A program made the translations under genes and the position numbers. From assembly GCA_020072925.1 (NCBI GenBank), contig JAIQGA010000010.1, positions 1 through 55,855 of the forward strand: a stretch of 55,855 nucleotides of DNA. Direction: 5' to 3'. This document shows, piece by piece, positions 53,924-55,470 of this stretch. Positions within the stretch are counted from its first letter, which is position 1. Every line of letters begins with the position of its first letter. The notes under the pieces are model-generated. The model was given only the letters and a program-made list of their open reading frames with translations. It ran no database searches and was not told the origin of the DNA. This DNA comes from Terriglobia bacterium. Lineage in GTDB: Bacteria > Acidobacteriota > Terriglobia > UBA7540.

Positions 53924-55285
53924 TCAGCCTCGCGTCCCCACGATGAGGCCGGAGGGGCCGGGCAGGCGGATGTGCCGGACTTCCTGGAAACCTGCCTCGC
54001 GCAGCCACGCCGCGTATTCGGGTTCGCTGTAGCTGCTACCCGCTTGGGTTCCGACGAGCATATTGAGCGCGAACAGGGCCGCGAATTTCGGAGCGGTCTT
54101 ATTCGGCTCAAGGATGAAATCCTGAATGACCAGGCGGCCCTGCGGCGCCAGAGCCGCGTAGCAACGTTTCATCAAATCCAGGTTTTCATCGGGATTGAGC
54201 ATGTGGCAGATGGCGGAGACAAAAACCAAATTGTAGCCTTCGCCCAGCTTGTCGGTCCGCAGGTCACCCGCGCGCGTGGTGATGCGGTCAGTGAGAGCTG
54301 CCTTCTCAATATGCCGCTGCGCGATGGGCAGCACGGCCGGAAGGTCAAGCAGGTCGGCGCGCAGTTTCTCGCTCGCCTTGGCAAAAGCAATCGAATACGC
54401 CCCCGAGCCCCCGCCCACGTCGAGCATCCGCGCGACGCCTTCCGTGCCCACTGCGGCGACCACGTGCGGCGCGCGCTCCGCGGCGTTGCGATGCATGGCG
54501 GCAATAAAAGCTTCCGTCCAGTCCTCGCGCCGCTCGGCGTGTTCCTGATAGGACACTGACGTGCCCGCGCGCACGCAAGCGGTGAGGGTGGACCAGCGTT
54601 CCCACAGGTGCACGGTGTGCATCGTGGCCGCGCGGCTGTCGTCGGGCGCGCCGGCGGTGAAGTACCGCGCGATTAGAGGTGTGTTGTGAAAGACGCCGTC
54701 CTGCTTGGTGAGCGTGCCCATCGCCGCCAGCGCATTCAGCAGCATCTCGGTGGCGCGCGGATCGGTGCGGAGGACGCCCGCGACTTCCACGCCGCTCCGG
54801 CCTTCTCCAATCGCCGTGAAGACATCCAATTCCACCGCGGTGAGAAGCACGCGGCTTTCCTGGAAGGCGCGCAGGGTCTGCGCCAGGTCGTCGGGGAGTA
54901 TGCCCGCCGCGTCCTTGGCGCGCATTGCCGCCAGCATCTTGTCGCGGTTCCCGGTGATCTCGGCCTTGAGCGCGGCCGCGTCAGAATTGACTAGACGCTC
55001 GAGCACTCGTCCCTGCTGGAAGTGCGTCTCGACCAGTTCCGGCACGTCGGCGGGCTGCACGCTGGAGTACCAGACCCCCTCGGGATAGACCACCACATTC
55101 GGCCCTCGCTCGCAAACGCCCAGCGAGCCGCACACCGTGATTTGCACCTGGTCGCCCAGATGGCGCGCGGCGATTTCCCGGCGCAACGCCTCAATCGTTC
55201 TTGCCGAGCCTCGCGCCGAGCAGCAGGGCACGCCTTCGGGTTTCTGTTGATCGCAAACGAACACGTGATAACGATAGGGTTCCAT
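53924..55285 (-). CDS. Fusion of a thioredoxin-like [2Fe-2S] ferredoxin and a SAM methyltransferase
   Basis: 453 residues; the ATG at 55285 has GAGGAC upstream. Residues 1-95 are a thioredoxin-like ferredoxin: YRYHVFVCDQQKPEG with Cys11, Cys21/22, and CGSLGVCERGPNVVVYPEGV with Cys52 and Cys58. In relatives the last pair is usually CxxxC; here the expected third ligand position is Ser54 and Cys52 lies two residues earlier. Residues about 130-453 form a plant-type O-methyltransferase: a helical dimerisation domain (ESRVLLTAVELDVFTAIGEG), SAM motif I (LDVGGGSGAYSIAFAKA) and VIQDFILEPN. Role unknown; a redox-linked methylation is possible. Confidence 0.85.
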   Translation of the reverse strand: MEPYRYHVFVCDQQKPEGVPCCSARGSARTIEALRREIAARHLGDQVQITVCGSLGVCERGPNVVVYPEGVWYSSVQPADVPELVETHFQQGRVLERLVNSDAAALKAEITGNRDKMLAAMRAKDAAGILPDDLAQTLRAFQESRVLLTAVELDVFTAIGEGRSGVEVAGVLRTDPRATEMLLNALAAMGTLTKQDGVFHNTPLIARYFTAGAPDDSRAATMHTVHLWERWSTLTACVRAGTSVSYQEHAERREDWTEAFIAAMHRNAAERAPHVVAAVGTEGVARMLDVGGGSGAYSIAFAKASEKLRADLLDLPAVLPIAQRHIEKAALTDRITTRAGDLRTDKLGEGYNLVFVSAICHMLNPDENLDLMKRCYAALAPQGRLVIQDFILEPNKTAPKFAALFALNMLVGTQAGSSYSEPEYAAWLREAGFQEVRHIRLPGPSGLIVGTRG

Positions 55286-55470
55286 AAGAGTCCTCGCACC
55301 AAAGGTTTTGGCCCGCGCCATTATAGTTCCACTTGTAAAGGGCTGGCGATGGAAAGAGGCCGCGCGACAGCGGCGGGCGCGACGATGGCGCGCCTATTGT
55401 GGATAACACATTGACCGGAAGAGGGGTATAATCGCCCCACCTGCTTCCAACGCTCATTATGGAGGTCGCC

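Follow-up and report, generated by a model that had tools for sequence, protein, structure and literature searches.

The window analysed here, a 55,855-nt stretch of contig JAIQGA010000010.1 from a Terriglobia bacterium, carries on its minus strand (53924-55285) a single open frame of 453 aa that encodes a fused two-module protein, in which a putative thioredoxin-like [2Fe-2S] ferredoxin precedes an O-methyltransferase. The start codon at 55285 is supported by a possible ribosome-binding site with a 5-nt spacer upstream and by M1, which is invariant in 30 aligned fusions. The features of the gene are as follows.

53924..55285, minus strand: fusion gene, thioredoxin-like [2Fe-2S] ferredoxin plus O-methyltransferase, 453 aa (sequence, Pfam/NCBIfam profiles, fusion alignment)
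55291..55295, minus strand: GAGGA, possible ribosome-binding site, 5 nt before ATG (sequence)
54983..55285, minus strand: ferredoxin domain, residues 1-101 (NF041612, PDB 1m2b match, domain model)
55253..55255, minus strand: Cys11 codon, expected ligand 1 (invariant in 30/30 fusions)
55220..55225, minus strand: Cys21-Cys22 codons, Cys22 being expected ligand 2 (C22 in 30/30 fusions, C21 in 20/30)
55130..55132, minus strand: Cys52 codon TGC, shifted third cysteine (Cys in 24/30 fusions, 53/108 domains)
55124..55126, minus strand: Ser54 codon TCG, usual third-ligand position (fusions, Ser 21/30 and Cys 9/30; domains, Cys 59/108 and Ser 49/108)
55112..55114, minus strand: Cys58 codon, expected ligand 4 (Cys in 108/108 domains)
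54908..54979, minus strand: linker helix, residues 103-126 (AlphaFold2 models; standalone ferredoxins stop at or just past the same helix)
54668..54895, minus strand: O-methyltransferase dimerisation domain, residues 131-206 (PF08100, 4.3e-11)
53984..54547, minus strand: SAM-dependent O-methyltransferase domain, residues 247-434 (PF00891)
54401..54421, minus strand: SAM-binding motif DVGGGSG, residues 289-295 (D289, G291-G293 and S294 invariant in 30 fusions)
54203..54205, minus strand: His361 codon (aligned with the ICH His of plant O-methyltransferases; invariant in 30/30)

The two modules of the fusion

In the model, the N-terminal domain has the fold of a thioredoxin-like [2Fe-2S] ferredoxin. 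Predicted alone (pLDDT 95.5), it matches the Aquifex ferredoxin structures 1m2a, 1m2b and 1m2d (Z 18.6, 1.2-1.8 Å) and Azotobacter vinelandii FeSI, 5abr (Z 18.4), and a sequence search pairs the ferredoxin part with PDB 1m2b (5.8e-21). The domain was predicted separately; no ferredoxin chain is among the matches listed for the full-length model, where methyltransferase matches fill the list. In profile searches, residues 1-101 scored below the curated cut-offs of NF041612 (9.6e-22, 77.5 bits, cut-off 150) and NF041613 (3e-20, 72.5 bits, cut-off 195), and the score against Pfam PF06999 (Suc_Fer-like), 24.7 bits, was under the gathering cut-off of 34.9. A His7/Tyr67 pair, which corresponds to the inter-chain pair His7/Tyr69 of A. 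vinelandii FeSI (PMC8561814), is invariant in 30/30 fusions; the invariant H7 and Y67 are suggestive, and only suggestive, of a ferredoxin homodimer. Mean identity across 29 relatives is 0.65 for the ferredoxin part and 0.64 for the methyltransferase part, indicating that the ferredoxin is not decaying, since it is as conserved in the fusions as its partner.

The C-terminal module is a complete plant-type O-methyltransferase, which with its dimerisation domain spans residues 131-453. Both PF00891 (1.6e-26, 93.4 bits against a cut-off of 22.3) and PF08100 (42.9 bits against 25.6) were recovered, and the methyltransferase part of the model superposes on 5i2h over 303 residues (Z 33.2, 2.3 Å). 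The claim of an earlier note on this DNA, that a ferredoxin is joined to a complete plant-type O-methyltransferase, is thus borne out by the single frame, by both Pfam scores and, at the level of prediction, by the ferredoxin fold. H361 aligns with the ICH of (iso)eugenol O-methyltransferase 3reo, whose His we take to be the catalytic base in plant O-methyltransferases. Structural matches of this part include 5i2h (listed as an apigenin complex), RedM, PigF and DnrK. The module resembles the PF00891/PF08100 enzymes RedM, PigF, Plim_1147, DsyB and BchU in fold, SAM motif and His position; unlike them, the fusion has an N-terminal ferredoxin, and its identity to these solved enzymes is only 20-28%. 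The best PDB sequence match to the fusion is DsyB, an MTHB S-methyltransferase, at 28% identity. Two candidates were set aside: BchU (bacteriochlorophyllide C-20 methyltransferase) as an identity for the module, with TIGR02716 at 74.7 bits against a cut-off of 276.1, and PDB 22ow_A (461 aa) as a solved fusion, since only its residues 143-459 match and the ferredoxin query did not match its N-terminal part.

Distribution, solo enzymes and gene neighbourhoods

Of the 399 genomes searched in the window's class, 21 hold the full-length fusion, from residue 1 to at least residue 450 in one frame, and fused-length matches lie in four genomes from other classes of the same phylum (G557, G617, G425 and G580). 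The fusion also occurs in 2 of 195 genomes of a second phylum (that of L018, titled Deltaproteobacteria and placed in Myxococcota in the tree) and in 1 of 240 genomes of a third (that of L015, titled Opitutia; Verrucomicrobiota in the tree), both occurrences resting on the phylum under which the metagenome-assembled genomes are filed. Forty chosen regions were retrieved from a longer match list. Loci taken from single contigs and from whole genomes overlap in part (L006/L089, L013/L091, L016/L099, L022/L029, L015/L160 and L018/L161); once repeats were removed by sequence identity or contig, 35 distinct fused sequences were compared. Independent genomes share both the architecture and the CGS motif, so the fusion is not a product of chance; it is a real protein of soil bacteria and no contig artefact, and the possibility raised earlier that it is confined to this contig falls away. 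An open-access literature search found no paper on a ferredoxin-methyltransferase fusion, which does not prove that the fusion is unpublished.

Methyltransferases 40-66% identical to that of the fusion exist without a ferredoxin. In the methyltransferase tree (66 of 84 rows used, outgroup set reduced to 10), placing the 35 fused rows takes 6 changes, of which starred branches force at least 5, and solo forms 43-66% identical to the methyltransferase of the fusion interleave with fusions; one solo methyltransferase (L034) lies inside a fused clade with support 100/99. Forcing the fusions into one clade cost 68.9 log units and was rejected (p-AU 0.00045). A genome-wide search of 20 solo-enzyme genomes for a close ferredoxin found none, the best match being 4.4e-20 at 40% identity, and two of the 20 had no ferredoxin match at 1e-8. 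The reverse is also seen: at L121, L122, L124, L207, L114, L116 and L021, a close ferredoxin stands alone and stops at the linker helix or shortly beyond it. Solo enzymes and standalone ferredoxins together indicate that the module is mobile and that the methyltransferase can do without it. The argument from dispensability would be weaker if solo forms switched substrate once the module was lost, as may have happened. The window's own genome encodes a second methyltransferase relative without a ferredoxin (L001:1-1074, contig C355; 58% identity), which starts at a contig edge; its N-terminus is signal-peptide-like, and the solo enzymes L105, L106 and L108 look similar, an odd trait for a SAM-using enzyme.

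These results bear on what the ferredoxin might do. The earlier note had raised a radical-type reaction, and we consider it very improbable that the fusion protein carries out redox or radical catalysis of its own: only the fusion as such speaks for it, whereas the radical-SAM motif CX3CX2C, looked for in the fusion sequence, is absent, DVGGGSG and the His are conserved, and relatives without a ferredoxin nest among the fusions. We also consider it unlikely that the ferredoxin passes electrons to the substrate, reducing a quinone-like compound to a hydroquinone whose free OH would then be methylated in place. This route would suit the electron-carrier fold and a methyltransferase class that acts on phenols and polycyclic aromatics (the 5i2h, RedM, PigF and DnrK matches), but no close ferredoxin turned up in the genomes of closely related solo methyltransferases, and the loci examined contain no conserved linked reductase gene.

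The earlier note had also looked to the genomic context of relatives, which yielded little: across about 50 loci, no neighbour was conserved beyond close-relative synteny, and no pathway can be assigned. In the window, a RhaT-like transporter lies downstream of the fusion. At one locus, in one genome only, a solo methyltransferase 64% identical to that of the fusion belongs to a hemA-hemC-hemD run and shares 4 bases with hemD (L016:2-3483). HemA, HemC and HemD were absent from the other loci compared (L016, L099 and L082 being the same stretch), and a tetrapyrrole link is best treated as a lead. Elsewhere, a standalone CGS-type ferredoxin has a 4-base overlap with a moeA-like molybdenum-cofactor gene (L156:6856-8372), and a solo methyltransferase gene shares its strand with an adjacent gene for a CobW-family GTPase (L109:7192-9218).

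The cluster site and its shifted cysteine

As printed in the available text of PMC11138216, the motif of thioredoxin-like ferredoxins is C-X10-12-C-X29-34-C-X3-C. In the fusion, C11-X10-C22 and the X29 spacing to C52 fit this motif, whereas its final pair takes the form C52-X5-C58 and Ser54 occupies the place that the X3 spacing reserves for Cys. In the alignment, the Aquifex counterparts of Ser54 and C58 are Cys55 and Cys59. The domain shares with Aquifex ferredoxin (1m2a, 1m2b and 1m2d) and FeSI (5abr) the predicted whole-domain fold (Z 18.4-18.6), C11, C22, C58 and the dimer-interface His/Tyr; unlike both, it has Ser at the third ligand and Cys two residues earlier, giving C-X5-C rather than C-X3-C, and is fused to a methyltransferase. 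C11, C22 and C58 are invariant in 30/30 aligned fusions and canonical C54 is present in 9/30, with positions 52/54 reading C/S in 21, S or T/C in 6 and C/C in 3. Ser54 in place of the third Cys, with Cys52, Cys21 and Cys22 present, had been pointed out in the earlier note, and the alignments uphold it: by sequence, the anomaly is real and conserved.

We extended the comparison to 108 distinct ferredoxin domains, fused and unfused (distinct rows from 153 aligned, mostly of one phylum and all found with the fusion-ferredoxin query). Positions 52/54 read C/S in 47, other/C in 53, C/C in 6 and S/S in 2, raw counts that are non-independent owing to the relatedness of the domains. No residue other than Cys (59) and Ser (49) stands at position 54, whereas at position 52 Cys can give way to Ser, Ala, Thr or Leu. 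C11, C22 and C58 plus C52 or C54 are all present in 94 domains, the 14 exceptions comprising 5 rows without an aligned position 11, 7 with the second Cys aligned elsewhere and the 2 S/S rows. These two, the only domains with neither C52 nor C54, are standalone ferredoxins that retain S54 and have an extra C21, so that C21-C22 is present (L121:1504-1806 and L124:1501-1803); they are candidates for a natural serine-ligated [2Fe-2S] cluster. A separate group of standalone ferredoxins (family f31; L173, L176 and L184) carries C52 together with C54, and its N-terminal loop is short.

The codon for Ser54 is TCN in 46 of 47 C/S domains and in 48 of all 49 Ser54 domains, as expected if the residue is maintained as Ser; together with the strict Cys/Ser choice at position 54, this makes Ser54 unlikely to be a mere relic. 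C52 is missing from 53 of the 59 domains that have C54, a count inflated by shared ancestry. The ferredoxin tree, built on 100 columns and with weak forks, requires 8 changes to account for the four 52/54 states; C/C and other/C are mixed within one clade of 9 fused domains, consistent with a thiol that moved via forms holding both cysteines. An independent-pairs test of C52/C54 exchange could draw on just 3 pairs from starred branches (p 1), too few for significance. C52 and C54 rarely occur together, which favours C52 as the replacement ligand; strict Cys/Ser at position 54 favours Ser54.

The conserved ligand site also speaks to the idea that the ferredoxin is a structural or dimerisation module, in which a cluster, if present, merely stabilises the fold. 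Both modules come from dimeric families, the dimer-interface pair of the ferredoxin is kept, and the ferredoxin was repeatedly lost or gained on the tree, all of which would suit such a role. We judge it improbable, however, with the cluster-site residues among the most conserved in the domain and position 54 confined to two residues that can both ligate iron.

The site resembles either a migrated ligand or a naturally occurring equivalent of the Cys55Ser Aquifex ferredoxin, an engineered variant solved as PDB 1m2b. Ligand swapping in thioredoxin-like ferredoxins has been seen in mutants. Tentatively, and on the doubtful side, the [2Fe-2S] site may be hemilabile, with one coordination position shared by S54 and C52: the thiol would have moved between positions via double forms, O- and S-ligation may swap with redox state, and this switch would be wired to the methyltransferase so that methylation depends on cluster state. 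Alternatively, Ser54 could be the fourth ligand, as in the engineered variant, and C52 could form an inter-subunit disulfide across the dimer axis as a thiol switch. In A. vinelandii FeSI, whose ligands are Cys11, 24, 56 and 60, residues 53 and 55 form hydrogen bonds between the two subunits of the homodimer (available text of PMC8561814); C52 corresponds to FeSI residue 54 and so may face its mate in a dimer, a geometry that we infer. The solved Cys55Ser structure and the finding that every non-Cys residue at position 54 is Ser (49/49, TCN in 48/49) agree with this alternative. Nevertheless, we regard it as quite unlikely, given that the rarity of C52 beside C54, even allowing for ancestry, would be expected if C52 replaces C54.

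A proposed accessory role for the ferredoxin

To a two-module enzyme, in which methyl transfer by SN2 chemistry with His361 is combined with an accessory ferredoxin whose cluster state tunes the methyltransferase, we give about an even chance of being the correct description. The C-terminal module would transfer the methyl group of SAM to its substrate by ordinary base-assisted chemistry with His361. The N-terminal module most likely binds a surface [2Fe-2S] cluster via C11, C22, C58 and a fourth site of C52 and/or S54, and the occupancy or redox state of this cluster would tune a presumably dimeric methyltransferase. The ferredoxin is most likely an accessory module that acts by redox or cluster state, a reading supported by solo methyltransferases that interleave with fusions and lack a close ferredoxin in the genome. 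A module that is mobile and dispensable to the enzyme, yet equally conserved in the fusions, fits an accessory and probably regulatory role better than a catalytic one. Cluster-based regulation of the methyltransferase, as the earlier note had it, can thus fairly be suggested from these comparisons. Against the two-module proposal, no conserved operon or partner that would back a regulatory input was found among the loci compared.

The best precedents for such an accessory module, by analogy, are DGAT3 and the bacterial ferrochelatases. DGAT3 is a plant acyltransferase with a thioredoxin-like ferredoxin domain and a demonstrated [2Fe-2S] cluster; like the fusion, the Arabidopsis enzyme is a transferase bearing a thioredoxin-like [2Fe-2S] domain whose role is unexplained as far as the available text goes, and it differs in being an acyltransferase, in having its ferredoxin at the C-terminal end and in its canonical C-X3-C pair (PMC6250708). 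Bacterial ferrochelatases have a patchily distributed [2Fe-2S] cluster that, in the available text of PMC8529089, is not needed for activity. They share with the fusion a patchy accessory site with cysteines at differing sequence positions; unlike it, by the same text, they have no ferredoxin-fold fusion, their cysteines lying in an insertion or tail. Thioredoxin-like ferredoxins themselves are given no settled function in the available text of PMC11138216.

Overall, the fusion most likely combines ordinary methyltransferase chemistry with an unusual, putative cluster site. The natural family holds all of the 52/54 states (C54 only, C52 with C54, C52 with S54, and S54 only) in small domains with high-confidence predictions, and lets one test directly whether serine is a physiological [2Fe-2S] ligand and whether such shifts alter potential. 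The fusion, moreover, gives the ferredoxin a defined partner whose activity can be measured both in the presence of the module and in its absence, with natural solo enzymes as controls.
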